Position numbers and translations under genes: made by a program. DNA of 37,764 nt from an uncultured Verrucomicrobiota bacterium. Lineage in GTDB: Bacteria; Verrucomicrobiota; Verrucomicrobiia; Limisphaerales; UBA8199. The notes under the pieces are model-generated. The model did not search any database. It was not told the origin of the DNA and saw nothing but the letters and a program-made list of their open reading frames with translations. Of this stretch, positions 7,934-26,292 are shown piece after piece. The first letter of the stretch is position 1. Each line of letters opens with the position of its first letter. The stretch spans positions 1 through 37,764 of the forward strand of contig CAIQQM010000214.1 of assembly GCA_903873945.1 (NCBI GenBank), read 5' to 3'.

Positions 7934-9307
7934 TTACGCGGGATCAACTTCGTAACCTTCTTCCCGGAAGCGCTGGAGTTTATAAATCAGCGCCCGGCGG
8001 CTGATGCCGAGGGCTTTCGCCGTTTCGGTCCGATTGAAGTTGTGCTTGCGGAGGGCCTGGAAAATTGCCTGGCGCTCAATCTCCCCCAACCTCTGCGCAT
8101 CGGCTGGTTCCGCAGCGGGCAATAATTCCGCGGGTCCACGCGCTCTCGCCGGCAGATGCTCAGGAAGAATCAGGTCGCCCATGGACAGCAACGTCGCACG
8201 TTCCATTGCGTTCCGCAGCTCACGGACATTCCCGGGCCAGGAGTAGCGAGCCAGGCAATCGACGACCGCAGAGGAGAAGCGCGCTTTTCCGTGCGTGAGC
8301 TCGGCCACAAACGCATTGGCCAGCGGCAGGATATCTTCCGGCCGCTCACGCAAGGCGGGAATGTTGAGTTCAACAACATTCAGCCGGTAGAACAGGTCTT
8401 CGCGGAAACGGCCGGCCTTGACTTCATCTTCAAGGTTGCGGTTCGTAGCCGCCAGGATGCGGGCGTTGGTTTGGATGACATTGTTGGAGCCGACCCGGTT
8501 GAAGCGTCCCTCCTGAGTCACCCGAAGCAGCTTGGCCTGGAGCGGAGGAGACATGTCGGCGATCTCATCCAGGAAGATGGAACCGCCATTGGCCAATTCA
8601 AAACGACCGATCCGCTGAGCCACCGCGCCGGTGAAGGCTCCTTTCTCGTGGCCAAAGAGTTCGCTTTCCAACAAAGTTTCAGGGATGGCGGCGCAATTAA
8701 CTTTTACCAACGGGCCGGACGAGCGGAAACTCCACGCGTGGATCACATCGGCCAGGACTTCCTTGCCAACGCCGCTTTCGCCCGTGATTAAAACGCGGCT
8801 CTCGGAGGGTGCGATCAATGAGGCGTCGTGCAACACAGCCTGCATTAGCGGACTTTTCGCCACCACGTGGCCGGGCAGAGGTTTCTCCGCCTCGAACTTT
8901 ACCGGGGTGACGGTCGTCATGCCGGTCGCCTGCTGGACCGTGGCGAGCAGTTCATCGAGGTCAATCGGTTTCGCGAGGTAATTGAGGGCACCATCGCGCA
9001 TGGCCCCCACAGCCTCCCGGATATCGGCGTAAGCCGTCACGAGCAGGACCGGCAGGACGGCGTGCTCCTGACGCGCACGGCGCAGGGTTTCCAAGCCAGA
9101 CATTCCCGGCATGCGCACGTCGGAGATCATCATGCTGATATCCTGACCACGAAGGGTTTCCAACGCCTGCTCACCCGAGTTCACAGGCACGGTGTGGAAG
9201 CCCTGACTGCGCAGGAATGAATCCAGCAGGCTCCGTTGGCCGGGGTCGTCATCCACGATCAGAATGCGTGGCGCCCTTAAACCATTCTTGCGAGGTTCGG
9301 ACGGCAT
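7934..9307 (-). CDS. NtrC-family sigma-54-dependent response regulator
   Basis: 457 residues with the classical three-domain layout. The receiver domain spans residues ~13-125, with the acidic pocket at D19-D21, phospho-acceptor D63 (SDVRMPG) and K113 (LAKPID). An AAA+ sigma-54 activation domain spans ~145-385, with Walker A GESGVGKE at ~176-183, the sigma-54-contacting GAFTGA loop at 223-228 and LDEIADM as Walker B. A Fis-type helix-turn-helix lies at ~412-450 (RTETAKALGISRRALIYKL). It is the last gene of the long minus-strand run, and the sensor kinase four genes upstream is the obvious partner. Having an intact GAFTGA, it should activate sigma-54 promoters; one with matching enhancer-like palindromes lies at the head of this gene run (27004-27110). 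The kinase-regulator pairing and the target are inferred from context. Confidence 0.95.
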   Translation of the reverse strand: MPSEPRKNGLRAPRILIVDDDPGQRSLLDSFLRSQGFHTVPVNSGEQALETLRGQDISMMISDVRMPGMSGLETLRRARQEHAVLPVLLVTAYADIREAVGAMRDGALNYLAKPIDLDELLATVQQATGMTTVTPVKFEAEKPLPGHVVAKSPLMQAVLHDASLIAPSESRVLITGESGVGKEVLADVIHAWSFRSSGPLVKVNCAAIPETLLESELFGHEKGAFTGAVAQRIGRFELANGGSIFLDEIADMSPPLQAKLLRVTQEGRFNRVGSNNVIQTNARILAATNRNLEDEVKAGRFREDLFYRLNVVELNIPALRERPEDILPLANAFVAELTHGKARFSSAVVDCLARYSWPGNVRELRNAMERATLLSMGDLILPEHLPARARGPAELLPAAEPADAQRLGEIERQAIFQALRKHNFNRTETAKALGISRRALIYKLQRFREEGYEVDPA

Positions 9308-11880: not shown

Positions 11881-13425
11881 CTAAACGGCCACTTTAAGGT
11901 GGGTAATGCGGAAGATAGCGCCTCGGGGAACGTTGGGCAGGCATTCGATTTCCCAGCCGTGAGCCAGGACAATCTGTTGCACGACGGCCAATCCCAACCC
12001 GGTGCCCTTTTTCTGAGTAGTGAAATAGGGCTTGAAGATCTCAGTACGACGCTCGGGGGGAACGCCGGGACCGTTATCGCGCACCTCGAGGGAAGCCTCG
12101 GTTCCATTGCGTTTCCCGGCCACTACCTGGATCTCGCCGCCCTCGTCAACCGCTTGAGACGCATTAAGAAGCAGGTTGAAAAGCGCCTGGCGGAGCAATT
12201 GTTCGTCCGCCTCAATCCTAAGCGCGTCGCCGCCAACCTCCAGTTTGATTTTCTTCTCCTCGAGGTCGTAGGTAAGGGCGCGAACGACTTCATTCACGAC
12301 GGAGCTGAGGGCGAGAACAGAACGGCGGACTTCGCGCGGACGCGAATAGTTGATGAACTCGTTCAATTGCGCGGCGACTTTGTCGGCTTCATCGATGATC
12401 TCACGCGATTTTCTCTGAACCTCGGGAGGGGAACCGGGCTGTTTGGAGAGCATCTGGGCCAGGCCGCGAATAATGTTGAGCGGGTTGCGGGTTTCGTGGG
12501 CGAGACCGGCGGCAGCGAGATTCATTTCCTTGAGGTGGGTGTTGAGTTCGCTTGCGCGGACAAGGCGGATCTGGAGGTCGGCGGACTTGGCAAGGTTGCG
12601 CCAGGCGAGGCTTGAGCCGAGAGCGGAGACGGTAGCGAGCACAAAGATGATCCAACGCAGCCTGAGATCATTGGCGCGCGCAGTTTCGAAAGCGTCCGTG
12701 GACAGGGCAAGAACGAGGGCATGCAAAGCGCGTTGTTCGACGAGGGATTGGTATTCCTTTTCATCCATCCCGCGCAACCAGGGCGGGCGCCGCGGTCGTG
12801 AGCCCCTTTCTTCAGGAGGAGGGCCGACGGGCTCGCCGGGAAACGGAGCGGTCAACGCCGCCAAGTTCGAAGAGGTTGTCGAGTCTTGAGAGTCGGGCGG
12901 CGGGCGGCGAGGGAATCTGCCACGAAAGCTCTCGGGCGCGTTGTTGGTCAGGCCTCGCAAAGGCGGGAGCACCACTGTCGGATTCGTAGAGCCTTCGGAG
13001 CTAAGGCTCGTGCCGAGGTCCACCGGAGTCACGATAGTGACGGTCTTGCGTCCCCAACGTTCTCCTTCCTGCAGGATATCCTTTTGCCCAAAATCGATGG
13101 GGCGGCCGGCGGAAGCGACGGGCTCACCAGCAGCGTTCAGGAGAGCAATGGAGATGAGGTCGCTGGATTTGACGAGCTCGTTGGTGCGGCCGTTGACAAG
13201 TTCATCCAGAACGGGCTCGAGGCGTTCCTGCAAGACGGCACCGCGAAAGCGCATGCCGCGGATGCAGGCGCTGACGGTGTTGGCGATGTCTTTGGCGCGG
13301 TTCCGGAGGTCGGCCTTCGCAGCATTGGTGATGCGCGCATGTTCTTCAAGCTGCCAGGTCACGACCAGCGCCCAGACAGCCGCGAGAAGTCCGTAAACCA
13401 CCAGGTTACGACGAGCTATTTTCAT
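11881..13425 (-). CDS. membrane sensor histidine kinase (NtrB/ZraS type)
   Basis: 514 residues. An N-terminal membrane segment lies at ~7-24 and a second at ~257-275, enclosing a ~230-residue extracytoplasmic sensor region. That region includes a proline/arginine-rich, low-complexity stretch (~160-215) that looks disordered. The dimerisation/phospho-acceptor helix has H310 in GLAHETRNPLNIIRGLAQ. The ATPase domain shows NLLLNASQAV (N box), DNGPGVP (G1) and KGTGLGLAVVQQIV (G2). The family senses an extracytoplasmic signal and phosphorylates an NtrC-type regulator. The only such regulator nearby is the one at 7934-9307. The gene starts 16 bases after the secretin barrel gene, so it is very probably co-transcribed with the secretion genes. 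Confidence 0.93.
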   Translation of the reverse strand: MKIARRNLVVYGLLAAVWALVVTWQLEEHARITNAAKADLRNRAKDIANTVSACIRGMRFRGAVLQERLEPVLDELVNGRTNELVKSSDLISIALLNAAGEPVASAGRPIDFGQKDILQEGERWGRKTVTIVTPVDLGTSLSSEGSTNPTVVLPPLRGLTNNAPESFRGRFPRRPPPDSQDSTTSSNLAALTAPFPGEPVGPPPEERGSRPRRPPWLRGMDEKEYQSLVEQRALHALVLALSTDAFETARANDLRLRWIIFVLATVSALGSSLAWRNLAKSADLQIRLVRASELNTHLKEMNLAAAGLAHETRNPLNIIRGLAQMLSKQPGSPPEVQRKSREIIDEADKVAAQLNEFINYSRPREVRRSVLALSSVVNEVVRALTYDLEEKKIKLEVGGDALRIEADEQLLRQALFNLLLNASQAVDEGGEIQVVAGKRNGTEASLEVRDNGPGVPPERRTEIFKPYFTTQKKGTGLGLAVVQQIVLAHGWEIECLPNVPRGAIFRITHLKVAV

Positions 13426-13441
13426 GCGTCAATGAATCGAA

Positions 13442-14764
13442 TCAGTTTGGCACGCTGGACGGGCTGGTTTTGCCTTTGCTGGATTTTCCGGGTGCGGGGA
13501 CAGGGCTCTGTTGTGCTGGCAGCGCGTCAATGAACTTGTCCAGATCGCGCTGATCAAAGGACTTGGGGGCATCGGTCTTTGCTCTTTCAGCGGCAGTCAG
13601 CGCAGCCAGTTCGGTGGGTGATTGAACGATGTATGGCGTCAGGAAAATAATGAGCTCAGTTTGACTGTCGTTTTTCACTGAGTGCTTGAAGAGGTTACCC
13701 AGCAGGGGGATATCGCCGAGGATAGGAATCTTCGTGTCGGTTTTTGCCTTCGAGCTTGTCATCATACCGCCAAGGATGACGGTTTGTCCCGAGGGAGTGA
13801 CGGCGACCGTGTTAGCGGAACGTGTTTCGATATAGGGGACAGTGATGCCTTGCGAGATGGTTTGGGTTTGGGTTGGGTCGACTGAGGAAACCTCGGGGTT
13901 GATAATCATCTCGACCATGCCATCCGAAGTGATAAAAGGAGTCACATTCAGGATGATGCCCACATTCTGGTACGTATAGGCCTCAATGGGAGTGCCATTC
14001 AAGCCATTATAAGAGACGCTGGTGACGAGCGGCACCTGCTCGCCGGAGAAGATTTGCGCCGGCTGGTTATTCCGGGCAAGGATGGAAGGGCGCGACAACA
14101 CCTTCGTGCTTCCGGATTGGGCAATGGCACGCACAGTCGCCTGGTAATTTGCGCCAAGGACCTGATACAGACCGGCGGCACCCGCGCCTACGCCGGTTGA
14201 CTGGAAACTGGAAATGGGCTGTCCGACGGCATTGTACTGCAAATTGGAGGGGGCGGTGTTGAGTCCGCTGAGACCAAACACATTGGCGGCATTGGCAATC
14301 GGCTGATTGCCGGTGCCAGTCCAACCTCCCTCGACACCGATATCGGAACCCTGATTGCGAGTGACCTCGAGGAACACAACCTTGATGAGGACCTGGGGCT
14401 TGGGCTTATCCAGATTTGTCAACACCTGCATCACATAAGGCATGGCCTCCTCCGGAGCGATAACGACGACCCGGCGGGTTTCGGGGTCGATGGTAAAATA
14501 GGCGTCGGGGATGGTGCCATTGGCAGGATATTGCCGGGAAACGACATTGCCACTGCCAGCGCTCGACGTGCTGCGACCAGCGGCGCTCCCGCTAGTGCCG
14601 CCACCACCACCGAAACCGCCGCCGCCAAAACCACCTCCGCCACCCGTTCCGCCGCCCCCGGTTCCGCCGGCTCTCTGTTGCGCCTGGATATCGAGCGCGG
14701 CGCACAAACCGAGGCTCAAGATGCAGATGAGGCACTTAAGCCATTTCGAGTATATCGTAATCAT
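13442..14764 (-). CDS. secretin, C-terminal barrel half of a split GspD
   Basis: 440 residues. A signal peptide (MITIYSKWLKC..., ending near DIQAQ) is followed by a glycine-rich tract and then ~45 residues (YFTIDPETRRVVVIAPEEAM...) that look like the second half of a secretin_N ring domain. The outer-membrane secretin barrel domain fills the rest: QVLIKVVFLEVTRNQGSDIG at its start, VLSRPSILARNNQPAQIFSG, TVAVTPSGQTVILGGMM and KIPILGDIPLLGNLF. A charged/proline tail closes the protein. Start: the ORF track begins at a TTG (14806), but the ATG at 14764 has GAGG five bases upstream and directly begins the signal peptide. It lacks the N0 and N1-N3 domains expected of GspD; these are encoded by the preceding gene. 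Family knowledge: 12-16 copies form the T2SS outer-membrane gate. Confidence 0.9.
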   Translation of the reverse strand: MITIYSKWLKCLICILSLGLCAALDIQAQQRAGGTGGGGTGGGGGFGGGGFGGGGGTSGSAAGRSTSSAGSGNVVSRQYPANGTIPDAYFTIDPETRRVVVIAPEEAMPYVMQVLTNLDKPKPQVLIKVVFLEVTRNQGSDIGVEGGWTGTGNQPIANAANVFGLSGLNTAPSNLQYNAVGQPISSFQSTGVGAGAAGLYQVLGANYQATVRAIAQSGSTKVLSRPSILARNNQPAQIFSGEQVPLVTSVSYNGLNGTPIEAYTYQNVGIILNVTPFITSDGMVEMIINPEVSSVDPTQTQTISQGITVPYIETRSANTVAVTPSGQTVILGGMMTSSKAKTDTKIPILGDIPLLGNLFKHSVKNDSQTELIIFLTPYIVQSPTELAALTAAERAKTDAPKSFDQRDLDKFIDALPAQQSPVPAPGKSSKGKTSPSSVPN

Positions 14765-14818
14765 GTTTACCTCGCCGTTGTTGTTAGTTGATAACTTTGG
14801 ATTCAAATGGGCCTCCAG

Positions 14819-16486
14819 TTAGTTGCCGGTTGCGCTGCGAGAGCCGGTAGACCCAAGTGTTGTGGTACTGATAGTCGACGGCTGCGTTTGAGTCGCGCGC
14901 TGCGTGAGCGGGTTATTCTGCCCCAACAACGAGCGGCTGCTGCTGGAGTTCATACGGACAGTGCTGCGATTGAACAGATCAGAGAGAGCCTGCTGGACGT
15001 CCTGCGGGTCGGCGTTTTGCAGGTCATAGACGCCGACGACTTCTTTTCTGCCAGCCGCGGAATCCAGCTCCTCGATCATCTCGGTAATCTGGGGCATGAG
15101 CGTCTTCGAGGCGGTGACAATCAGTCTCGAAGTGCGTGGGTCCGGCACGGCAAGGACGCGTCCAAGTTTCTTTTCCCGATCGCTGCCGCCAGTCGTGGTG
15201 GTGGCAGCGCCTCCCCGCTGCCCGCCAAATCCGCCGCGGAAGAAAAACGGGAATTGGTTCTGATTGCCGCTGCTTGAGCTGGTGTCGTCAGGAAAGAGCT
15301 GGGAGAACTGATTGGCCAGCTCGGTAGGGTCGGCGTTTTTCAGGGTGAAGACCTTCAACTCGGTAACATCAGTGACCGGCTGGTCGATTTTATCGACGGT
15401 TTCGGCAATCGTACCCAGCAAATCAGCCGGGGCACTGACGATGAGCGAATTCGAGCGTTCATCGGCGACGGCGGTGACGCGCGTGGCAGCAGCGCCAGTG
15501 CCAGTGCTGCTGCGGCCACCGGCAGCAGTGTTCCCGCCGCCACCACCTCCGCCTCGTGCGCCGCCGAACATGTTGAAAAGAGCACCTCGACCGCCACCCC
15601 CACCGCCGCCGGTTTGAGTTGATTGAGACGGGGTGAACAATTGCGTAATGAGCGCGGCCAGATCCTTGGCATCAGCATACCGCAACGGCATGACTCTAAT
15701 TGATGAGACGCTGGCAATAGAGGTGTCGAGCGCCGTGACGATTTTGAGCATGCGTTTGATGTCGCTCTTGGTGGCCACCATGATGAGGCTATTGGCGCTT
15801 TCATTGACAGAGAGAGTCGCGGAAGTGGGGAGCAGCACTTCAAGGTTAGCCATTAACTGCGTGGCGTTGGCATACCGGACGGGGATGATTTGCGTCACCA
15901 CTTCATCCGATTTTTCAACGTCCGCGGGATCGTTGCCGGTAACGACTTCGAGATCCGGAGATGTTTTCGCGGATTCCATTGAAATGATCGTTAGAATCCG
16001 TCCGTTACGGCTCACTGCGTACCCATTTTTCTTCAGGACGGAATTGAGCAACTCGACCGTCTCATCTTTGGTGAGGGGCTCTTTGCTCCAGATTTCGACC
16101 GTGCCTTTGACATCGGTTGTCTTGTTGATAACGAAGCCGGCGGCATCACTCAGGTAATCCAGGATGAGGTTGAGGGGTGCGCCGCGGAAATTGAGGCGCA
16201 AACCATTTGTGGTATTTTCGGCGACGATTGTGGGTGGCGGAGTATTTGTAGCGCCTGCCGGGACCGAGACGGACGCAACAGGGGCGGAGGCCGGATTTGT
16301 GCTGACCGTCACGGCCTGGCTCGCCGTGGATGGAAGCGGAGCTTGCTGACTCGCGGCAGCGACATTGGTCGCGGCCAGGACAACCGGAGTGTCTTTGGCC
16401 GGCGTGCCGGGAGCAGGCTGCGCCGTCAGAATCTGAGTGCCTGCGCAAAGCCAGGCAATGAGTGAGAAGAATTTCATTGTTTTCAT
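14819..16486 (-). CDS. secretin periplasmic-domain half of a split GspD (N0-N3)
   Basis: 555 residues with a signal peptide (to about ILTAQ) and no barrel domain. An N0-like domain (LRLNFRGAPLNLILDYLSDA, ~95-165) is followed by secretin_N (NolW-type) repeats at ~190-260 (IIPVRYANATQLMANLEVL) and ~265-375. A third repeat lies at ~378-480, and the first half of a fourth follows (VVGVYDLQNADPQDVQQALS). Long Gly-rich loops (GGGGGGGRGALFNMFGG and another) sit inside the repeats. The protein ends with a Ser/Thr-rich tail, and the rest of the fourth repeat is found at the start of the next gene, 54 bases downstream. SD AGGAA lies 9 bases before the ATG. It is probably the periplasmic ring partner of the barrel half; the two would have to assemble together. 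The functional reading is inference, while the domain content is visible. Confidence 0.88.
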   Translation of the reverse strand: MKTMKFFSLIAWLCAGTQILTAQPAPGTPAKDTPVVLAATNVAAASQQAPLPSTASQAVTVSTNPASAPVASVSVPAGATNTPPPTIVAENTTNGLRLNFRGAPLNLILDYLSDAAGFVINKTTDVKGTVEIWSKEPLTKDETVELLNSVLKKNGYAVSRNGRILTIISMESAKTSPDLEVVTGNDPADVEKSDEVVTQIIPVRYANATQLMANLEVLLPTSATLSVNESANSLIMVATKSDIKRMLKIVTALDTSIASVSSIRVMPLRYADAKDLAALITQLFTPSQSTQTGGGGGGGRGALFNMFGGARGGGGGGGNTAAGGRSSTGTGAAATRVTAVADERSNSLIVSAPADLLGTIAETVDKIDQPVTDVTELKVFTLKNADPTELANQFSQLFPDDTSSSSGNQNQFPFFFRGGFGGQRGGAATTTTGGSDREKKLGRVLAVPDPRTSRLIVTASKTLMPQITEMIEELDSAAGRKEVVGVYDLQNADPQDVQQALSDLFNRSTVRMNSSSSRSLLGQNNPLTQRATQTQPSTISTTTLGSTGSRSATGN

Positions 16487-16492
16487 ATAACG

Positions 16493-17476
16493 TTATTCCT
16501 GTTCCCGTCGCTGCATCATTCTCTTGATTATATCGCTTTCGGCGCCGCTGGAGGCGGCCGCAGAGGTTGTAGTCGTGGCCGGGGTTGGACCCGGGTTGGC
16601 CGCGTAGGTTTCGGCCCGGCTTACCGGATGCCAATCCCCTTCCTCCTCACGGCGCATTTGCCAACCCACGCCGAGTTCCACTTCGTTGGTTCCGGACGAT
16701 AGTTTGACTGTGTTCGGGGTAATGCTGGCAATTTTGTAGCCCGCAATCGCATCAGCGGTCTTGAGGGCTTTCGTATAATCGGAGCTCGTGCCGTCAAAGA
16801 ACGCAAATATGCCCTTCTCGTAACTCATGATACCCGCGAGCCTGAAGGATTCGACGGGAGCCGTCCGCTGGCGAGCCATTCCGGGCCGGTGTGGAACGCG
16901 ATTGGGGTCAAAAATATTCCTGTCCGCCACAATTTTGAAGGAAGCGTAGTCGAGTTTCAAGGGAGCGTTGTTCGTGCCTGCCGTCACAGCGCTTGCCACG
17001 GGAGCGCTAACTGCGTAAGAGCCGTTAGTCTGGGACTGCCGCTGGCGGCGGGAGCGACGAGAGCGGCGGCTGGGTTGGCTGTTAGTGCTCTTCTGAACGG
17101 AACCGCCGGCTTGCGACATAACAGTTGCCGGCGCGGCATTATCGGTTTGCGCCGCATCGTCCGGCTGGGAAATATCCTCAGCCTCCGTGACGTCATTGGT
17201 CGAAGAGGCAGGGGTTGTTTCCTGAGCTGTGACGAGCAAGCCGCTTATCAGGCCGACCAGCAGAACACTCCAAAGCCGCCAAGCTCTCTGCGACCGCCGC
17301 AACCCGATAACCGCCAACGCGTTTCCGTCGAAGGGTTTTGAGTTTTGCTCGAAGAGCCTGCCACCCCACCAACGACGCACTTTCGCCCCGGGCGCCGCAA
17401 CTTTCCCGCTGCCGTTTTCCAGCAAGCCGGTTTTATGCTCGGAATCGACTTCGCTGCTTGTTGGTTTCGACTTCAT
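16493..17476 (-). CDS. GspC-like inner-membrane protein of the T2SS
   Basis: 327 residues. A cytoplasmic N-terminal ~65 residues is followed by a membrane segment at ~68-84 (LWSVLLVGLISGLLVTA). Next comes a long low-complexity linker containing an unusual Arg/Ser patch (SRRSRRSRRQRQ). A compact domain at ~180-275 (SFKIVADRNIFDPNRVP, FRLAGIMSYEKGIFAFFDG) resembles the homology region of GspC and PilP, which binds the N0 domain of the secretin. The C-terminal tail is Ala/Thr/Ser-rich. The start overlaps the stop of gspM in an ATGA. Position immediately before the secretin genes fits the GspC role of joining inner-membrane platform to secretin. The match is structural-motif level only, so the name is tentative. 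Confidence 0.65.
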   Translation of the reverse strand: MKSKPTSSEVDSEHKTGLLENGSGKVAAPGAKVRRWWGGRLFEQNSKPFDGNALAVIGLRRSQRAWRLWSVLLVGLISGLLVTAQETTPASSTNDVTEAEDISQPDDAAQTDNAAPATVMSQAGGSVQKSTNSQPSRRSRRSRRQRQSQTNGSYAVSAPVASAVTAGTNNAPLKLDYASFKIVADRNIFDPNRVPHRPGMARQRTAPVESFRLAGIMSYEKGIFAFFDGTSSDYTKALKTADAIAGYKIASITPNTVKLSSGTNEVELGVGWQMRREEEGDWHPVSRAETYAANPGPTPATTTTSAAASSGAESDIIKRMMQRREQE

Positions 17477-18006
17477 TTTGCTTGCGAATTGAGAACGAGA
17501 CCGCTGATTTGCAGGCCGAGCGAAAGCTGCTGCCCTTCCTTGTCGCGCGCGGCGAGTTCCACTGACTGCAATTTGAGAGCCAGCGGTTCGCTTTCGACAC
17601 TATAAAGGAACCGGCTCAATCGGCTCAGGTCGCCCGTCGTATCGACGCGGCATTCATAGGTCATATACTCGTCACTGTCGTGTTTCCACTGAGGGGTAAT
17701 GGAGGCAATAATGACCCCAGCCTCCTGCGCCCAGCGATCAATCGCCTTGAAAACCTGTTGCTCGGCGGCCGAAGTGTTGTTCGAGAGCGTGTTGTGGGAC
17801 ATCCGATCCCAGCGGCTCCGGAGGTTCTGCGAGCGCAGCAACAACCGGTTGCCATTGGCGATATCTTTGCGCAACTCGGCGATGCGGGCCGAGCGCGCGC
17901 TCCACGATTTGGCAAGCGGCGTCAAGACCAGCCGGTCACCCGCGAACAGGCCAATGGCCGTCGCCGCGAGGATGATCAGCAGTTTCTGGCGGTTCTCAAT
18001 TTGCAT
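17473..18006 (-). CDS. gspM: GspM-like T2SS platform protein
   Basis: 177 residues when started at the ATG at 18006. The ORF track extends to 18210 but that part is the gspL sequence in another frame. The chosen start has GGGAGGAAAAA directly upstream and overlaps the end of gspL by 11 bases. A short cytoplasmic tail precedes one membrane segment (KLLIILAATAIGLFAGDRLV, ~8-27). A coiled-coil-like helix (~35-70) and a small ferredoxin-like domain (~85-175) follow, as in GspM/PilO. GspM pairs with GspL in the inner-membrane platform. The sequence is diverged, and the assignment rests mainly on topology and position. Confidence 0.75.
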   Translation of the reverse strand: MQIENRQKLLIILAATAIGLFAGDRLVLTPLAKSWSARSARIAELRKDIANGNRLLLRSQNLRSRWDRMSHNTLSNNTSAAEQQVFKAIDRWAQEAGVIIASITPQWKHDSDEYMTYECRVDTTGDLSRLSRFLYSVESEPLALKLQSVELAARDKEGQQLSLGLQISGLVLNSQAK

Positions 18007-19456
18007 TTTTTCCTCCCTCGTTCCAGACGAAGCTGAATGTGAATTGGAGCGCCGGCGGCTGACCGCGAGTGGCACCAAGGTTGACATCCGGAATTTGCGG
18101 CACAGTCCGCAGCCGTTCGACAGTCTTGAGCAATGCCTGGTAATTCCGCGAGGTACCCGAGCAAACGACCGTATTGAAATCGCGGATCTCGATGGTTTTG
18201 GCTGTGACACTGCCGTCCTCGGGGAAGGCTTCGGTGAGGCGTCGGAGAATGGTCAGCCCACGGATGGTGTCATCGAACCAAGGACGGTATTGTTTGATGC
18301 TGGCTTCGATGCCTTCGAGTTGGAGCACCGCCGGCTTCATCTTCGACCATTGGGCGCCAAGCCGCCAGAGTTGAAATTGCTGGACGGAAAACAACAACCC
18401 CACCAGCAGCGCCACGGAACCGGCTACGGTAAGGATAGCACGAAGCTTGCCGGAGGAATAACGCGCGGCCATTTGCTGCCACGCAGTGACCTTGGGCGGC
18501 AGAAAATCAAATGCCCCACAGCGGCCGGTCAAGCGTTCGGCAGCCAAGCTGAGGGCCGGAGACACCGCAGCGTCCTTTGGAAATTGCACACCAAATTCGT
18601 CCGCCGCATAGGCTGTAACCACTTCAACCTGCAGATTCATTGGTTCGAGGCGGAGTTCGATCTCGTCTGCGAGCTGGCGGGCGAGATCGCGCGGGCCGAA
18701 GATGCGAACCCGGCGCACGGCGGCGCGGACTTCGTCCGGCAACTGACCGAGGGTGATGCGCACCTCGCGCGCGACGAGGTCACCCTTGAGCTGGCGGAAA
18801 GAGCCCTCGGTTTCGATGGCCCCCTCCAGCGTCCGCAGGGCAATCACCCCACCACCAAAAGTTATCTGAAGGCCCACGTGGCTCTCGCCGATGGCCAGTG
18901 CCAGAACTCCGTTGGAGGAGTCCACCCCGGCTGGCTGGAGGGCGGCGATGCCCAATGCGAAAGCGGACGGCTTGAGCTTTGCCGCCTTCAGCACTTTTTC
19001 CAACACCGCAACATGGGTCCTAGGGATGCCAACCAGCATGGCGTAATCCTTACCAGCAGCCGAATGGCAGCGGGAAGTTGCGACCTGCAGCGTCTGAGCG
19101 TCGCAAGGGAACCCACGCTCGGCTTCGATCTGCAGGAAATTAGCAACGTCAGCCTCTGGCATTTGGGGGATCTCGGTATGGGTGGCGAGGACCCACTTCA
19201 AGGGCAGGCCCACAACGCAGTTGTGTTCGCGCACTTCGAGAGCATCAAGATGATTGCGAATCTCGCGGCCAACCAATTCCGGGTCGTTCGTAAGCGGGTC
19301 GAGCGAAAGCGAGACGGAGAAGGGGTGTTGAATTTCCAGGGCGCCGTTGGGGCGACGCAGGACGAGGCCGTCGAGGCGGCTTCCGTCCAGCACCAGACCC
19401 AACATCCCGGTAAGGCGTTGGCGTTTCAAAAAGTCCAATTTCGGCAGATTGATCAT
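17996..19456 (-). CDS. gspL: GspL-like protein: PilM-like actin fold fused to a PilN-like periplasmic domain
   Basis: 486 residues. The cytoplasmic ~330 residues look like the actin-like fold of PilM/GspL (MLGLVLDGSRLDGLVLRR; VLALAIGESHVGLQITFGGG). They are followed by one membrane segment at ~350-372 (AILTVAGSVALLVGLLFSV) and a ~110-residue periplasmic part with a PilN/GspL-type ferredoxin-like fold. In T2SS this protein recruits the ATPase GspE and binds GspM. The start at 19456 forms an ATGA overlap with the gspK stop and has AAAGGA seven bases upstream, so it is preferred over the ATG at 19480. The 612-residue plus-strand ORF covering this gene is a shadow. Confidence 0.85.
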   Translation of the reverse strand: MINLPKLDFLKRQRLTGMLGLVLDGSRLDGLVLRRPNGALEIQHPFSVSLSLDPLTNDPELVGREIRNHLDALEVREHNCVVGLPLKWVLATHTEIPQMPEADVANFLQIEAERGFPCDAQTLQVATSRCHSAAGKDYAMLVGIPRTHVAVLEKVLKAAKLKPSAFALGIAALQPAGVDSSNGVLALAIGESHVGLQITFGGGVIALRTLEGAIETEGSFRQLKGDLVAREVRITLGQLPDEVRAAVRRVRIFGPRDLARQLADEIELRLEPMNLQVEVVTAYAADEFGVQFPKDAAVSPALSLAAERLTGRCGAFDFLPPKVTAWQQMAARYSSGKLRAILTVAGSVALLVGLLFSVQQFQLWRLGAQWSKMKPAVLQLEGIEASIKQYRPWFDDTIRGLTILRRLTEAFPEDGSVTAKTIEIRDFNTVVCSGTSRNYQALLKTVERLRTVPQIPDVNLGATRGQPPALQFTFSFVWNEGGKNAN

Positions 19457-20898
19457 CGCGTATCCTTTGCCGCCAGCCATTTCTGGCGGACATCATTGCC
19501 GAGGGCCCAGCCGAGCTGGCTCAGGTCCTGGCGGTAGATGATTTGAGGTGTGCCACTGCTGGTGTCGAAGATAAATTTCACCCGCCGGTACCCCCGACCA
19601 TGCGGCCCGAGAGCCGCCACATCCGCGGCAAACTGGTAACTTTGGGTTGTGAGATAATCTCCCGCTTCAAGAAGTGACGCGTAGCTGGAGTAATTTTGAC
19701 CCAAGGCATCGACCACCCAGGCGATGGAGTTGAGATTGCCGGCATTCGACTGCCGGTAATTCACCAGTAACTGTCCGGCACTGGTATCGCCGCCCAACAA
19801 TGCAGCCAGCACCGGCGCGCTCGCGGTGTTCACATTGACGCGACCCTGGATATAGCTGCTGCTCGACATCATGATATTGTTGGCGATTTGGGCAAATTCC
19901 GTCGAAGTCATCCCGCTCCGGCGATAGAACTGGAGTGGGCTTGTGATGGGAGGGGTTAGGGGGAAGTTGTTTGCTGGAGGGTTCGTGAAGGTTGACTGGT
20001 TGTTAGTGCTACCGGAACCGCTGGTTATTCCCAGCCGGGTGAGAATCTGAGTCGCCCGCGGCTGGCCAAAACTGCCCTGCAGGAGGGTACTTAAGCTTCT
20101 GCTGGAACCACCTGTCAAACTGCTAGTGAGGTTGGTGATGTTGACTCGCGCGGTGCCGCTGCTGTTGGTGGCGGGGTTGGGTTCGCGGGTATAAACGGTC
20201 ACATATTCCAATACGCCGGCGTCCAGCATCCCGTTCTGGTTTTCGTCATTTTCGTTCGGGTCAAGGACGCCATTGCGATTTACGTCTTCACCCACCAGAA
20301 TATCCATACTGGCACCGTACAGGAGGCGCAACTCGTCCACCGTCTCGAAAGGGGCGCTCTTGCATTCGTAAGCCGGCTGAAGCGTTTCGTAATACATCTC
20401 GGTTGTGCCGGGACCGTTGGTGCTGCGCCAATCGAGAATGGCCGTCGTCAAATCCGTGGTCATGCGCGGCAGCCATACGATTTGATTGCTCGTAGCCCTG
20501 TTCAAACTGAGCTTGGACGCCTCGTCCACGAGCCCGAAACATAATTTGCCGGGCCCGACCGGATTATTGGTGTCGCGTCCAATCAGCCAGAAATGCGATT
20601 CGCCCACAGGCACTGCGGCGTTTGAGTAGGTTGTTATGCCAGGCAGAACGCCATTGGTCGCGTTGTATGAAAGTGTGGAACTGATGTAACGGGCTGCGCC
20701 GCCAATCGCTTCATCGGCGGATTGGGCTGAAACCCGGTTATCCGAGGCGCGTAGTTCAAAGGTCATGGAATTCGCGAAATAGAGAGCAAGGCTGACAAGC
20801 CCGAATGCGATCCACAGAACAATAATGAGCGTCGAGCCGCTCTCCGCAGCGCCAGCTGGCAGCCGCTGCCCATCTTTGGAATGCGTACCGGCGATCAT
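19453..20898 (-). CDS. gspK: GspK minor pseudopilin
   Basis: 481 residues. A short leader ends in ESG, followed by STLIIVLWIAFGLVSLALYF, the hydrophobic pseudopilin helix with the non-Phe residue typical of GspK. The large soluble domain includes two acidic loops, DVNRNGVLDPNE and DENQNGMLDAG, spaced like EF-hand/dockerin calcium loops, and a later helix-hairpin-helix-like segment (ASAPVLAALLGG). GspK caps the pseudopilus tip, and the large insert is normal for it. The ATG overlaps the gspJ stop as ATGA. Confidence 0.9.
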   Translation of the reverse strand: MIAGTHSKDGQRLPAGAAESGSTLIIVLWIAFGLVSLALYFANSMTFELRASDNRVSAQSADEAIGGAARYISSTLSYNATNGVLPGITTYSNAAVPVGESHFWLIGRDTNNPVGPGKLCFGLVDEASKLSLNRATSNQIVWLPRMTTDLTTAILDWRSTNGPGTTEMYYETLQPAYECKSAPFETVDELRLLYGASMDILVGEDVNRNGVLDPNENDENQNGMLDAGVLEYVTVYTREPNPATNSSGTARVNITNLTSSLTGGSSRSLSTLLQGSFGQPRATQILTRLGITSGSGSTNNQSTFTNPPANNFPLTPPITSPLQFYRRSGMTSTEFAQIANNIMMSSSSYIQGRVNVNTASAPVLAALLGGDTSAGQLLVNYRQSNAGNLNSIAWVVDALGQNYSSYASLLEAGDYLTTQSYQFAADVAALGPHGRGYRRVKFIFDTSSGTPQIIYRQDLSQLGWALGNDVRQKWLAAKDTR

Positions 20899-21605
20899 AA
20901 TGCGCCTCCGATGCTGTTCGTCGTAAGTGTCTGTGTGACGAGCGGCACAACAATTCCGAGCGGGTGCAAATTCCGGGCGTCAACGCCGGGTTCGGCCATC
21001 AGTTGGATACTAACGCGGACCGCCGTGGGCAGATTAGTATCGCCCATGCTTGTGTCCCAGGTATTGCGCCATTGCGTGCCATCGTAGCACTCAAATTGAA
21101 CACTGTTGATGTTGCCCATGAGCCATTGCTCATCAGGTGTCGGCATGCTGGTGGCAAGCAAGTTGCGGTTGACGTAGCGCACCAGGTCTTTGCCGGCCTG
21201 GTTCCGGTCGGCGGGATCTTTCAGCTGGTAATAAACTTCCTGGATGTCACCCCACGGTTCGTCATCGTTGATGGCCCCGGTGGAAGTGAAGAAATCAAGG
21301 CCGAGGCCCGAGGCTGAACCGAGGCCCATGGTCACGCCCATGGTCTGCGCCCCGCACTTGAAGTCGCCGGCGAGAATATTGTACGGTCCGACCGTGCCTT
21401 GCAGATCCCGGCGCAGAATAGCCAGGGCCTGCGTTGCGGGTAGAGCAGCATCCAACGTTGCCGAAGTTTTTTCCCGGAGGCGCACGGCGCTGAAAAAGAC
21501 GCCACCGATCGCCACCAGCACGATTGCCGAGATGGCGACGGCCAGTATGACCTCGACCAAGGTAAAGGCCGGGACAGGACGCCTGGCTGGAAGGTGGCGT
21601 GTCAT
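20895..21605 (-). CDS. gspJ: GspJ-like minor pseudopilin
   Basis: 236 residues from the ATG at 21605, which overlaps the gspI stop in an ATGA; the longer ORF to 21737 is gspI sequence in another frame. The leader MTRHLPARRPVPA is followed by FTLVEVILAVAISAIVLVAI, a type IV prepilin-like N-terminus. The residue before the cleavage point is Ala, whereas prepilin peptidase normally cuts after Gly. The rest is a beta-rich soluble domain (DEPWGDIQEVYYQL) typical of GspJ. It would act with GspI and GspK as the pseudopilus tip. Confidence 0.85.
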   Translation of the reverse strand: MTRHLPARRPVPAFTLVEVILAVAISAIVLVAIGGVFFSAVRLREKTSATLDAALPATQALAILRRDLQGTVGPYNILAGDFKCGAQTMGVTMGLGSASGLGLDFFTSTGAINDDEPWGDIQEVYYQLKDPADRNQAGKDLVRYVNRNLLATSMPTPDEQWLMGNINSVQFECYDGTQWRNTWDTSMGDTNLPTAVRVSIQLMAEPGVDARNLHPLGIVVPLVTQTLTTNSIGGAL

Positions 21606-22045
21606 TGCGAGAGATTGGTTGATAACGCGCTGTCCACGACAGTGCTCATCCGCACCGAGTAGTCCTGCCCTTGAACGGCGAAGACCACTTCGGCGGAAAG
21701 CAGGCGCAGGGGGGTCAAGGTCGGGTCCACGCCCCACGCATCATTGCGCACGGTCCAGCGGAACTGCCGAGTGCCATCATATTCGGTGCCGGACTGGGTG
21801 CCGCCGCTCGTCCAATTCGTCGTCACGATCGTTTCGTTGAGAATTCGCTGGGCAACGCGGGCGGCTTCACCCTTGCGCGCGGCGACGCTGCCGGCGCGGC
21901 TGGCAACGTGCATGCCTTCAAGCGCCACCGGGATGACGATGGCCATGAAAACCAATGCGGCCAGCACTTCCGCGAGAGTAAACCCCGCCCGGGAACGTGC
22001 GTTGCGAGAGGCTGCGGCGTTAACTAGGCTGCGTTCGAATTTCAT
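21602..22045 (-). CDS. gspI: GspI-like minor pseudopilin
   Basis: 147 residues. A basic leader ending RSRAG is followed by FTLAEVLAALVFMAIVIPVA, with the conserved Glu at position +5 after cleavage. The small soluble domain contains ARVAQRILNETI and RWTVRNDAWGVDP, a GspI-like arrangement. The gene overlaps the end of gspH by 26 bases and the start of gspJ by four. It is probably the nucleator of the pseudopilus tip together with GspJ and GspK. Confidence 0.85.
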   Translation of the reverse strand: MKFERSLVNAAASRNARSRAGFTLAEVLAALVFMAIVIPVALEGMHVASRAGSVAARKGEAARVAQRILNETIVTTNWTSGGTQSGTEYDGTRQFRWTVRNDAWGVDPTLTPLRLLSAEVVFAVQGQDYSVRMSTVVDSALSTNLSQ

Positions 22046-22727
22046 AGTTCAAACGGTTGCGCGAAAGTGTCACCCAGAGGGATGAACCCTCGCGGTCGCT
22101 CAATTGCAGCATCCGGGGGCTGCCATCGCTTACCGAGCCATCCGGCAGAAAACGGATCGTAGGCAGGCTCGGGTGTTTGCTGATGACCGGGGGCACGCTG
22201 GCCGTGCTGACCGGCATGGTGCTGCTGCGAACGACAGCCGGTTTGACGGAGTTCGCGCTGGACACTTCAATCTTCACATCCCGATCGAGCTCGAAATCGA
22301 CCGCTTTCGAGTCGCCATCGTTGTTATTGTCCTGATAACTGACCGCCGCTTCGAGCCCATAGGTCCGGCGCTCGGCATCGACCCACAGCTCCATCGGCAC
22401 GCCTTCAGACACCGCACGGCTCTGGCCGGCCCTTGTGAGGGCCAGGACGCGACGGGCTTCCGAGTCCAGCGCGCGGCCGGTGAAGAAGTGCGACAGCGTG
22501 GGCGCGGTGACCGAGACTGCCATGGTAAGGATCGCCATGACGAGAATGAGCTCGATGAGGGTGAAGGCCCTCAACAGGGACGACGATGGGGGCTGGTGGG
22601 CGCACCCTCGGCTGTGGCGTGTAGAGCGAGTGAGAGAAAAGCCGGACCCGGACAATACATACGGAGTCGCAAGGGACGTGGTTCCCCCGCTGCTCTTGCT
22701 ATTCGATTGTCCAATCATTGGCTTCAT
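22020..22727 (-). CDS. gspH: GspH-like pseudopilin with an unusually long leader
   Basis: 235 residues. The prepilin motif LLRA/FTLIELILVMAILTMAV starts only at residue ~54, so the predicted leader is about 53 residues, far longer than the usual 6-20. No ATG lies between 22727 and the motif; a TTG or GTG start closer to it is possible. As in GspJ here, Ala rather than Gly precedes the cleavage site. The soluble domain (VPMELWVDAERRTYGLEA; TIRFLPDGSVSDGSPRMLQL) has the look of GspH/FimT. It sits between the major pseudopilin and gspI, as in standard T2SS operons. Confidence 0.8.
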   Translation of the reverse strand: MKPMIGQSNSKSSGGTTSLATPYVLSGSGFSLTRSTRHSRGCAHQPPSSSLLRAFTLIELILVMAILTMAVSVTAPTLSHFFTGRALDSEARRVLALTRAGQSRAVSEGVPMELWVDAERRTYGLEAAVSYQDNNNDGDSKAVDFELDRDVKIEVSSANSVKPAVVRSSTMPVSTASVPPVISKHPSLPTIRFLPDGSVSDGSPRMLQLSDREGSSLWVTLSRNRLNYEIRTQPS

Positions 22728-22762
22728 TTTCAGGCCGGGACCGGCCTCCTTGTGCGCTTATT

Positions 22763-23206
22763 TCAGCGGCGCTGGGCCTGCCAGTTTCCGATGGGCGTAT
22801 TGGCTCCCGGCGTCCCTTGCGAGCTGATGTCGTAGAAACTCGGGTTGTGTTTGCCCGGGCAATCGTAGATGTATTCGCTGCCCCATGGGTCAAGGGGGAT
22901 GCTTTCCATGTAGGGCCCGTGCCAGCTCACGGCGTCGCGGGGTTGCACGACCAAATCATTCAGCCCGCTCTTCCCCTTCGGGTAGTAGCCGTTGTCCACC
23001 TCGAAGGAATCGAGCGCAGTTTTGAAGTTGGCGATCTGCGTCTGGGCGGCAGTGACGCGAGCCTGCTCGCTGCGGCCCATCACCTTCGGGTAAACAATGG
23101 CCGCGAGGGTTGCCAGGATAACGAGCACGAGCAACATCTCCACCAAGGTGAAGCCGCAGTTGTGCCGGCGAATGATTCGGTTTCGGTTTAGAGGTTGAAT
23201 TTTCAT
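22763..23206 (-). CDS. gspG: GspG major pseudopilin
   Basis: 147 residues. The leader MKIQPLNRNRIIRRHNCG is followed by FTLVEMLLVLVILATLAAIV. The soluble domain carries the GspG signature: VDNGYYPKGKSGLNDLVVQP, then GPYMESIPLDPWGSEYIYDC and an acidic/aromatic calcium-site region. GspG polymerises into the T2SS pseudopilus after cleavage and methylation by GspO, which is not encoded in this window. It lies 53 bases after gspF and 35 before gspH. Confidence 0.95.
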   Translation of the reverse strand: MKIQPLNRNRIIRRHNCGFTLVEMLLVLVILATLAAIVYPKVMGRSEQARVTAAQTQIANFKTALDSFEVDNGYYPKGKSGLNDLVVQPRDAVSWHGPYMESIPLDPWGSEYIYDCPGKHNPSFYDISSQGTPGANTPIGNWQAQRR

Positions 23207-23259
23207 AATAATTTAAACAATTGTGCCAAACCTGTTTGATTTTCCAAGTTGTGTAACCA

Positions 23260-24510
23260 TCACTTGATGTATTCCTGCATTGTGAAGATCGGCAGCACCA
23301 TGCTGATGAAGATTGTCCCGATGAAACCGGCGATGAAAAACAACAGCAGCGGCTCGGCAAACGCGACAGCCGTCTTCAATTCACGGTCGAGATCGCCCTC
23401 GGTGACGTTGGCGATGCGCACGAGTTCCGCGTCCAGCTTGCCGCTTTCCTCGGCGACGGCCACCATTTCGGAGACGGACCCCGGGAACAGGCCACGGCAC
23501 TCGGCGAGGCTCGCACCGAGCTGGCCGCCCTGCTGAACCCGCTCGATTGCGCGCGTGACGGCATCGACGAGGATTTGGTTGCCGATGGATTTGCGGGCGA
23601 CATTGAGGCCCTGCACCAGCGGGACGCCCGCCCCGAGGAGCGTGCCCAGCATCCGGCAGAACCGGGCCATGGCAAACTGAGCGACCAACGGCCCCACGAG
23701 CGGCGCGCGCAGGACCAATCCTTCCCAAACACGCCGCCCTTTCTCGGATGCGAACCAACTCCGAACGAGCAACACCGCGACGACCACGCCAACCACCACG
23801 AACAACCCATAGGACCGGACGATATGGCTGACGGCGAGGACAATTTGCGTCGGCAGAGGAAGTGCGGCACCGAGACCGGAGAAAATGATCTGGAACTTTG
23901 GAATGAAAAAGGTGAGGAGAAAAACGAGCACCGAAAGCGCGAGCACGAGCAGAATGCTGGGATAGAGCATGGCCGCGAGCACCTTTGAACGCAGGTCCTT
24001 TTCGCGCGCCTGGAAGTCCGCGATCTGCGCCAACACGACGTCCAAGAAACCGCCCGTCTCGCCCGCCTGCACCATTGCGGTATAAACCCGCGGGAAAGTG
24101 TCGGGGGATTTGCTCATCGCGTCTGCCAGCGACATGCCGTCGATCACGAGATCATGGATTTCCTTCCACTTCGCCTGGGCGGCCGGTGCGGAGGTTTCTT
24201 TATGCAGAATCACCAGCGCGCGGCTCAACGGGACGCCAGCAGCGAGCAGGCTTGAGAGCAGGCGGGTGAAATTCTCGAGCGACCGCGCAGAAACCCTGTG
24301 GGATTTCCGGGAAAAGGAGAACGATTTCAGGGATGCGGGCAGAGCCAGGCTTTTCTCGCCGTTGCCGGCGCCGGCTTTTTCGGCGAGGCTGATCGGCCGC
24401 AAACCCAGGGCCTCGATTTGCCGGAAGGCTTCGGGCCGACCGACCGCTTCAAGCTGGCCCTCCGTAACCCCTCCGCTCGCCTGCAAGCCTTTGTATTGAA
24501 AAATCGGCAT
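23260..24510 (-). CDS. gspF: GspF inner-membrane platform protein
   Basis: 416 residues with two T2SSF domains and three hydrophobic segments (~170-195, ~220-240 and ~385-405, the last being FFIAGFIGTIFISMVLPIF). The N-terminal domain begins MPIFQYKGLQASGGVTEGQL, as in PilC/GspF. Family motifs LLAAGVPLSRAL, MVQAGETGGFLD and a second VAVAEESGKLDAEL are present. The start is well supported: the stop of gspE (TAG) is part of the strong SD TAGGAGG six bases before the ATG, so the two genes are tightly coupled. Confidence 0.95.
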   Translation of the reverse strand: MPIFQYKGLQASGGVTEGQLEAVGRPEAFRQIEALGLRPISLAEKAGAGNGEKSLALPASLKSFSFSRKSHRVSARSLENFTRLLSSLLAAGVPLSRALVILHKETSAPAAQAKWKEIHDLVIDGMSLADAMSKSPDTFPRVYTAMVQAGETGGFLDVVLAQIADFQAREKDLRSKVLAAMLYPSILLVLALSVLVFLLTFFIPKFQIIFSGLGAALPLPTQIVLAVSHIVRSYGLFVVVGVVVAVLLVRSWFASEKGRRVWEGLVLRAPLVGPLVAQFAMARFCRMLGTLLGAGVPLVQGLNVARKSIGNQILVDAVTRAIERVQQGGQLGASLAECRGLFPGSVSEMVAVAEESGKLDAELVRIANVTEGDLDRELKTAVAFAEPLLLFFIAGFIGTIFISMVLPIFTMQEYIK

Positions 24511-24519
24511 AGTCGCCTC

Positions 24520-26292
24520 CTACGGTTGGTGTCTGGTTGGCAGCGGCGGCGGAGCGGGAGCCTTTGGCATGCCGCCCGGCTCATCGATTTTTGTCGTTCG
24601 CGCCACTTCCTTGGCGGTGGTCACGCTCAGAACTTCCTCGACGGTAGTAATGCCCATGCGAACGAGACGCCAGCCGTCATCGGCCAGGGTACGCATACCG
24701 GCATGCCGCGCGGCGTCCCGAATCACGTCGCTGGAGACATTCTTTAGTATCAACCGCCGGATTTCGTCGTCACTGTCCATCCATTCGAAGATGGCGTGGC
24801 GGCCGAAGAACCCTGTCTGGCGGCATTCCTGACAGCCAACCGATCGGAAAATTGTCGTGCTGGCCGGGATACCAACCTGAGCCTTGAATGCCTGGGCTGC
24901 CAGCGATGTGTCCGGCTGTTTGCACTCATTGCACAGCACGCGAACCAGCCGCTGCGCCAGCACCGCTTCAAGCGATGAAGCGACAAGGTAAGGCTCCACT
25001 CCCATATCCACGAGCCGGGTCAGGGCCCCCGGTGCGTCGTTGGTGTGAAGGGTCGAAAAAACAAGATGGCCGGTGAGCGAGGCCTGCACGGCGATTTGAG
25101 CCGTTTCCTGGTCGCGAATTTCCCCGATCAGAATCACGTCCGGATCATGGCGCAGAATGGACCGCAAACCGCGCGCGAAAGTCAGGCCCGCCTTCTCCGA
25201 AACCTGGATCTGGTTAACCCCCTTGAGCTGGTACTCCACAGGATCCTCGATCGTGATGATCTTGCGGACGGCATCGTTGATCTCGCTCAACGCCGTGTAG
25301 AGTGTTGAGGTCTTGCCGCTGCCGGTCGGCCCGGTCACCAGGATGATCCCATGCGGCATCTGGAGCACGCGCTGGAAGCACTGATGTTCCCGCTCATCCA
25401 TGCCCAACTGACCCATGCCGCGTAGCGTCGCGTTCTGGCGCAGCAGCCGCATCACTACCGCTTCGCCATGCAGCATCGGGATCACCGACACGCGAATATC
25501 CACCTCGTTTTCGTCTATGCGAATCTTGATCCGGCCGTCCTGGGGCAGACGCTTCTCGGCAATGTTGAGGTGGCTGAGGATTTTTACCCGCGAAACAATC
25601 GCCGGCTGGAAACGTTTCAACTGGGCAGGCACCGAGGTATCCTGCAGGACACCGTCAATCCGGTAGCGGATCTTGAATTCGTCTTCAAAGGGTTCCAGGT
25701 GAATGTCGGAGGCGCGCAACTCAATGGCGTCCCGAAGCACCTGGTTGACGAAACGGATAATGGAGGCGTCTTCAGCGGCGTTGTCCAGGTCTGTGTCGTC
25801 CTCATGATGTTCGTCCACTACCAGGAAAGTGGCATCCTCGCCGAGGGTGCCGATCGTGTCCGCGCCGACGCCAAGCCGCTTTTTCATCTCCCGCTGGATA
25901 GCTTCGCTGGTAGCCAAGACGGGGCTGAGGTTCAAGCCCGTCATGCTCTTGAGCGCATCCAGCCCCTGCGTGGCAAAGAGGCGGCTGGTGGCGATTTCAA
26001 CGGTCCCGTTGAGCCGCCGCAACGGCAGCAACTCTTCCTTTAGCAGAATCCTAGCGGGGAACAGGGAGAGGAGCTCCCGGTCCGGCTCGATATCGTCGAG
26101 AGTCGTGAATGCGAGATCGTATTCCCGGGCCAGCCACTTGAGGACATCCGCCTCTTCTTGAACTGCCTGGCCGGCACCGGACTCGTTTTGCCGCGACAAA
26201 ACCGCCGCATCGGTCACAGACAACTGCCTAGCTGCGACCATTCTATCGAGCAACGGTTTTGCCGGCGGTTCCTGAACAACGCTCTCGCTCAT
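24520..26292 (-). CDS. gspE: GspE secretion ATPase
   Basis: 590 residues. It has an N-terminal MshEN/GspE-N domain (~15-150), a catalytic core with Walker A GPTGSGKT at 321-328, the Asp and His boxes, Walker B-region DPDVILIGEIRDQETA and STLHTND. A tetracysteine zinc motif (VLCNEC ... GCQECRQTGF) of the GspE/PilB family lies near residues 460-500. The ATPase powers pseudopilus assembly from the cytoplasm through GspL and GspF. It lies 57 bases downstream of the small secreted protein gene, with no visible strong SD before its ATG. Confidence 0.95.
   Translation of the reverse strand: MSESVVQEPPAKPLLDRMVAARQLSVTDAAVLSRQNESGAGQAVQEEADVLKWLAREYDLAFTTLDDIEPDRELLSLFPARILLKEELLPLRRLNGTVEIATSRLFATQGLDALKSMTGLNLSPVLATSEAIQREMKKRLGVGADTIGTLGEDATFLVVDEHHEDDTDLDNAAEDASIIRFVNQVLRDAIELRASDIHLEPFEDEFKIRYRIDGVLQDTSVPAQLKRFQPAIVSRVKILSHLNIAEKRLPQDGRIKIRIDENEVDIRVSVIPMLHGEAVVMRLLRQNATLRGMGQLGMDEREHQCFQRVLQMPHGIILVTGPTGSGKTSTLYTALSEINDAVRKIITIEDPVEYQLKGVNQIQVSEKAGLTFARGLRSILRHDPDVILIGEIRDQETAQIAVQASLTGHLVFSTLHTNDAPGALTRLVDMGVEPYLVASSLEAVLAQRLVRVLCNECKQPDTSLAAQAFKAQVGIPASTTIFRSVGCQECRQTGFFGRHAIFEWMDSDDEIRRLILKNVSSDVIRDAARHAGMRTLADDGWRLVRMGITTVEEVLSVTTAKEVARTTKIDEPGGMPKAPAPPPLPTRHQP

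Follow-up and report, generated by a model that had tools for sequence, protein, structure and literature searches.

Secretins are usually taken to be homo-oligomers of a single chain. Among the closest described systems, the secretin of the rhizobial-type type III secretion system (T3SS) is split into RhcC1 and RhcC2, and in B. elkanii it is spread over three genes; RhcC1/RhcC2 arose by partial replacement, with RhcC2 coming from Tad and RhcC1 from a T3SS secretin (PMC3459982, PMC3973906, PMC3574062). In the type II secretion system (T2SS) of mitochondria, a Secretin_N domain is shared between two proteins, with its C-terminal half in GspDN2 and its N-terminal half in GspDN3 (PMC8134430). No account of a bacterial GspD divided within a domain turned up in a literature search, subscription journals and preprints being outside its coverage. 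The present analysis concerns such a split in a 37,764-nt stretch of DNA from an uncultured Verrucomicrobiota bacterium (contig CAIQQM010000214.1 of assembly GCA_903873945.1; hereafter the window). The T2SS secretin GspD encoded there very probably consists of the products of two adjacent genes that go back to one ancient fission inside a domain, its ring being assembled by complementation of the two half-domains.

Domains of the two chains

The gspD pair lies on the minus strand within a T2SS gene cluster with the order E-F-G-H-I-J-K-L-M-C-D1-D2-kinase. Its features are the following:

14819-16486, minus strand: chain 1 (GspD-N, D1, P0001, 555 aa), with signal peptide, N0, R1-R3 and the first half of R4
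15998-16195, minus strand: N0 domain, residues 98-163 of chain 1 (PF21305, above cut-off, E 5e-9)
15056-15901, minus strand: three complete Secretin_N repeats R1-R3, residues about 196-477 of chain 1 (Pfam, structure model)
14966-15043, minus strand: R4a, the beta1-alpha1 half of the fourth repeat, residues 482-507 of chain 1, VVGVYDLQNADPQDVQQALSDLF (Pfam profile 2-35)
14765-14821, minus strand: TAA stop of chain 1 and the 54-nt gap before the ATG of chain 2, at the position of the alpha1-beta2 loop in single-chain relatives
13442-14764, minus strand: chain 2 (GspD-C, D2, P0002, 440 aa), with signal peptide, Gly-rich linker, second half of R4 and barrel
14681-14764, minus strand: signal peptide of chain 2, residues 1-28 (hydrophobic core, alignment)
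14393-14509, minus strand: R4b, the beta2-beta3-alpha2 half of the fourth repeat, residues 86-124 of chain 2 (Pfam profile 31-67)
13622-14128, minus strand: complete secretin barrel PF00263 (E 5.9e-50 in the genome search)

A sequence-only reading of the window had placed a split secretin in these two open reading frames (ORFs), the first with a signal peptide, N0 and Secretin_N repeats and no barrel, the second with a signal peptide of its own, half a repeat and the barrel, and the fourth repeat halved between them. Both ORFs are present on the minus strand and Pfam divides the domains in the same way, with the GspD N0 and four Secretin_N stretches on chain 1, and only positions 28-69 of the Secretin_N profile plus the complete Secretin domain (PF00263 1-169 of 169, 167 bits) on chain 2. 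The half sequences quoted in that reading were also right: R4a alone matched positions 2-35 of the Secretin_N profile with 19.4 bits and R4b alone positions 31-67 with 26.5 bits, and the two joined in order matched positions 2-67 with 45.5 bits (cut-off 28.2). Long Gly-rich loops separate alpha1 from beta2 in R2 and R3 of chain 1 as well. Each chain begins with a signal-peptide-like segment, and the start of chain 2 is most likely the ATG at 14764, with GAGGT just 5' of it, rather than an upstream TTG.

The domain search that had been proposed for both proteins, run with Pfam and the GspD model TIGR02517, shared the latter out almost end to end, with chain 1 covering positions 1-277 and chain 2 positions 279-600. 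The scores were 186.9 bits for chain 1 and 236.1 bits for chain 2, as against a whole-protein cut-off of 351.35 that presupposes a single polypeptide, and the pair was therefore filed as a split variant and not as a standard GspD. A T2SS secretin is otherwise expected to have a GspD-type N0, three Secretin_N domains and a PF00263 barrel. N0 and barrel are both here, and the Secretin_N domains number three complete ones in chain 1 plus one composite (two plus one composite in the shorter forms among the relatives).

Conservation, origin and gene neighbourhood

Relatives were first searched using chain 2 as query (58 relatives, wider regions inspected), and then in the phylum, the order and named genomes. 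The two parts were separate ORFs in every ortholog of the first search, and the orthologous loci classified in all comprised 122 with two chains, 3 with three chains and none fused. After removal of duplicates and of one broken locus, 118 distinct loci remained (this bacterium and at least 117 relatives; 115 two-chain, 3 three-chain), with no fused ortholog among them. Loci scoring <350 with chain 2 were all single-chain, except for the broken ortholog (L070, genome G012), in which chain 2 is interrupted by several stops and falls into two ORFs, a pseudogene or assembly errors in one genome. Long stop-to-stop frames resembling fusions (G018, G041, G662, G668 and others; up to 1320 aa) were rejected as overlapping alternative frames, the chain 1 ORF being separate each time.

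The split loci span at least 45 family codes, most of them belonging to the order of the window, where orthologs were present in 198 of the 293 genomes; others belong to further orders and classes of Verrucomicrobiota, to which the named near relatives, one labelled Pedosphaera parvula, also belong. Genomes consisting of one contig, such as G179, carry the split pair too. Single split pairs were also met outside the phylum, in L087 (labelled Omnitrophota) and L091 (labelled Sumerlaeota), by transfer, wider origin or misbinning.

In the alignments the half-repeats end and begin at the same place in all orthologs, with R4a kept throughout. Across 124 loci the gap from the chain 1 stop to the chain 2 start had a median of 39 nt and was never negative (unusually long gaps: 805 nt in L046, 335 nt in L223). 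The tail of chain 1 in the split forms had a median of 52 residues, 75 percent of them G/S/T/N/Q. A recognisable signal peptide was present on chain 2 in 121 of the 124, as scored by a simple hydrophobicity rule and not a dedicated predictor. Both chains are under purifying selection, with ratios of nonsynonymous to synonymous substitution rates (dN/dS) mostly of 0.1-0.3 in close pairs (0.59 for chain 2 in one pair). With the same split in 118 distinct loci and a dN/dS of about 0.1-0.3 for both chains in most close pairs, the observation goes far beyond chance. In a number of relatives (L040, L043, L044, L045, L047, L051, L056 and others) chain 1 is shorter and lacks the whole of R2, which leaves N0 and three N domains, the canonical GspD set; the split lies at the same loop.

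In a tree of the secretin domain, inferred by a quick search without bootstrap in which 50 of the split rows were included, the split rows formed one side of a branch with a Shimodaira-Hasegawa-like approximate likelihood ratio test (SH-aLRT) value of 99, next to and nested within single-chain GspDs of Planctomycetota. The closest single-chain relatives match both chain profiles within one ORF, and two of them (L094 and L095) sit in the same K-L-M-C-D order. In the last repeat of these two, a low-complexity loop of ~50-60 residues, rich in Ser, Gly and Gln, lies between alpha1 and beta2, at the position taken in the split forms by the tail, stop, start, signal peptide and Gly-rich linker. From these comparisons, the split clade would be explained most simply by one fission between alpha1 and beta2 of the last N domain. 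The split is an ancient, fixed state and did not arise by recent breakage; the sequence-only reading had named fused relatives with a recent break in this copy as an outcome that would overturn it, and the 118 loci and the single old clade speak for the reverse. Other Planctomycetota (L099, L101, L127) have single-chain secretins in which a great many Secretin_N repeats precede the barrel; they measure >=2350 aa, the locus being open at its 5' end.

The three-chain loci are found in one genus (L036 and L185) and in another family distant in the tree (L069). Their chain 1 is additionally cut in the alpha1-beta2 loop of R2, which is homologous to the first cut, and a further signal peptide and a Gly-rich linker stand at the front of the extra chain. 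They are a repeat of the same kind of event as the original fission.

The genes around the pair are:

16493-17476, minus strand: gspC-like gene adjoining chain 1 on its upstream side (XpsN matched weakly, below the cut-off; such a gene precedes the pair in 78 of the 124 loci)
17473-26292, minus strand: remaining T2SS genes gspM, L, K, J, I, H, G, F and E (profiles, motif, position, synteny)
11881-13425, minus strand: histidine kinase gene directly downstream of chain 2 (HisKA and HATPase_c; downstream in 74 of the 124 loci)

GspG, GspF, GspJ and GspK pass the Pfam cut-offs and GspE scores 608 bits; the Pfam matches of GspH and GspM are weak, and GspI was assigned solely by its N-methylation motif and GspL by position. 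The pair is placed in a T2SS cluster by the profile matches of GspG, F, J, K and E, the weakly matching gspC-like neighbour and synteny. A survey of relatives for the same split between gspC and a kinase gene, suggested with the sequence-only reading, found the order K-L-M-C-D1-D2 conserved. An NtrC-like response regulator is encoded further on past the kinase (7934-9307), and through these two genes the T2SS may be tied to a two-component system.

Proposed assembly of the half-domains and alternative explanations

For structure prediction with AlphaFold, a linked construct of R3, R4a, the stop and chain 2 was folded as one string, the TAA being read as Gln (27 sequences). R4a (model residues 109-138) and R4b (290-319) were predicted with a per-residue confidence (pLDDT) of about 85-92, the linker mostly with <50. 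Residues 108-321 of this model align as one N domain with HofQ (2y3m; 63 residues, 1.8 A, Z 8.3) and also match PilQ (4av2), EscC (3gr5) and InvG as one N domain, and residues 109-602 align with N3 plus barrel of GspD. Chain 1 folded alone showed N0, which matches the N0 of enterotoxigenic Escherichia coli (ETEC) GspD (4jtm, Z 11.8, 2.1 A), and R1-R3; at the position of R4a there was only a helix, without the beta1 strand, and none of the listed PDB matches extended beyond residue 480. Since chain 1 alone has no fourth domain and chain 2 holds only the C-terminal half, neither chain has a complete fourth repeat, as the sequence-only reading had to presume. The two halves are thus predicted to fit into a single canonical N domain, a fit obtained on the linked construct that does not imply their meeting in the cell, and in this modelled sense the two-chain complementation put forward in that reading is supported.

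The analysis shows the genes and domains, their conservation and single origin, the selection on both chains, the random relative frame and the predicted complementation; expression, export, assembly, stoichiometry and secretion of the split GspD are inferred. After the last N domain (the equivalent of N3 of GspD) had been split in its alpha1-beta2 loop by the ancient fission, leaving two gspD genes, each chain would be exported by means of its own signal peptide, as judged from sequence. In the periplasm, the beta1-alpha1 end of chain 1 would pack on the beta2-beta3-alpha2 start of chain 2 to give a complete N domain, and this composite domain would link the ring stack N0-R3 of chain 1 to the outer-membrane barrel of chain 2. 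The ring most likely forms only once the half-domains have fitted together. Known GspD rings have 15 subunits, and a ring of this kind would comprise 30 polypeptides, or 45 in the three-chain lineages. A further suggestion, possible and on the whole doubtful, is that the split is functional and not neutral, with ring stack and barrel exported, inserted and perhaps exchanged separately, and the joining of half-domains serving as a controlled step of gate assembly that was repeated in the three-chain lineages.

Several points limit the case for half-domain complementation. Two halves folded on one string are forced into proximity, and AlphaFold already knows the fold. Mutual information with average product correction (APC) between R4a and R4b (67 effective sequences) gave uninterpretable top pairs, and the intact R3 used as control was likewise without a clear contact pattern. 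Pairing in trans between neighbouring subunits is indistinguishable here from pairing in cis.

The two proteins might also act apart with the halves unjoined, chain 2 as a short-necked pore and chain 1, in contact with GspC, as an independent ring or adaptor in the periplasm. This would agree with the proposal that RhcC1 of the rhizobial T3SS is a linker between secretin and SctD (PMC3459982) and with the pores formed by mitochondrial GspD without its N domains (PMC8134430), but each half has stayed precisely a half in all orthologs, none being shortened or made whole, and sequence and predicted fold alike match the two together to one N domain, so that we regard separate action as improbable.

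Production of one long GspD by stop readthrough or ribosomal frameshift is very improbable. In the window the ORFs of chain 1 and chain 2 do share a frame, with a single TAA between them, whereas over the 124 loci the relative frames were 0, 2 and 1 in 41, 46 and 37 cases and the stops of chain 1 were TGA, TAA or TAG. The frames between the chains are random, and a fusion by readthrough or frameshift is therefore not conserved; moreover, chain 2 begins beyond the stop in every locus, and in nearly all of them it has a signal peptide that a fusion would bury internally.

Apart from the split GspD, the genome has a single-chain GspD-like secretin of 686 aa in a second T2SS-like cluster with gspE-, gspL- and gspM-like genes (contig C280; G000:C280, L074, 611-6862), a secretin of 640 aa on C170 and an Amuc_1098-like protein below the family cut-off on C25, none of them within the split-gspD cluster; the assembly (about 90 percent complete) contained no second strong match to chain 1. 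These other secretins could have done the work of a normal gspD lost to pseudogenization, recent breakage or assembly error, an explanation that is next to negligible in view of the 118 distinct loci that share the split across at least 45 family codes, one-contig genomes among them, of purifying selection on both chains, and of the location of the other GspD on another contig with E, L and M genes of its own. The sequence-only reading had named a full-length GspD elsewhere in the genome, serving this cluster, as an outcome that would overturn it.

Comparison with known systems

The split GspD is a GspD by apparent descent and, as far as its sequence indicates, by mode of action, yet it is not the single chain that the standard family model demands. 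With canonical T2SS GspD (TIGR02517; GspD of ETEC and V. cholerae, PulD, XcpQ) it shares N0, Secretin_N repeats, barrel and the place after gspC in a T2SS cluster. Canonical GspD is one chain, whereas here the protein is exported as two or three chains, with a cut inside the last N domain, and the form in the window has one repeat more than the canonical N0-N3. Because of the split, T2SS surveys with whole-protein cut-offs could miss GspD in Verrucomicrobiota. That a large bacterial clade has kept a split within a domain, and that two of its lineages have split again at the homologous loop, suggests that two exported chains can together build a ring domain, and the split GspD may offer a natural split-protein system for following secretin assembly.

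RhcC1/RhcC2 resemble the split GspD in being a secretin of several genes with an N part that lacks the barrel. The RhcC genes are apart in their cluster, whereas the halves of the split GspD are adjacent, come from one GspD and are cut inside a domain; two phylogenetic origins as in RhcC were not found, both chains matching the GspD model best. Mitochondrial GspD and GspDN1-GspDN3 likewise have N domains on separate proteins and a half-domain logic, and the split GspD can be seen as a bacterial parallel to these half-domain proteins. The mitochondrial system is eukaryotic and organellar and lacks N0, whereas the split GspD belongs to bacterial T2SS clusters and has Sec-type signal peptides; chain 2 keeps half an N domain fused to the barrel, while mitochondrial GspD is a barrel without N0-N3 (the sequence comparison was confined to bacteria). 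The closest single-chain relatives are the GspDs of Planctomycetota (L093-L096), which are unsplit and carry a low-complexity loop instead of the stop, start and signal peptide.
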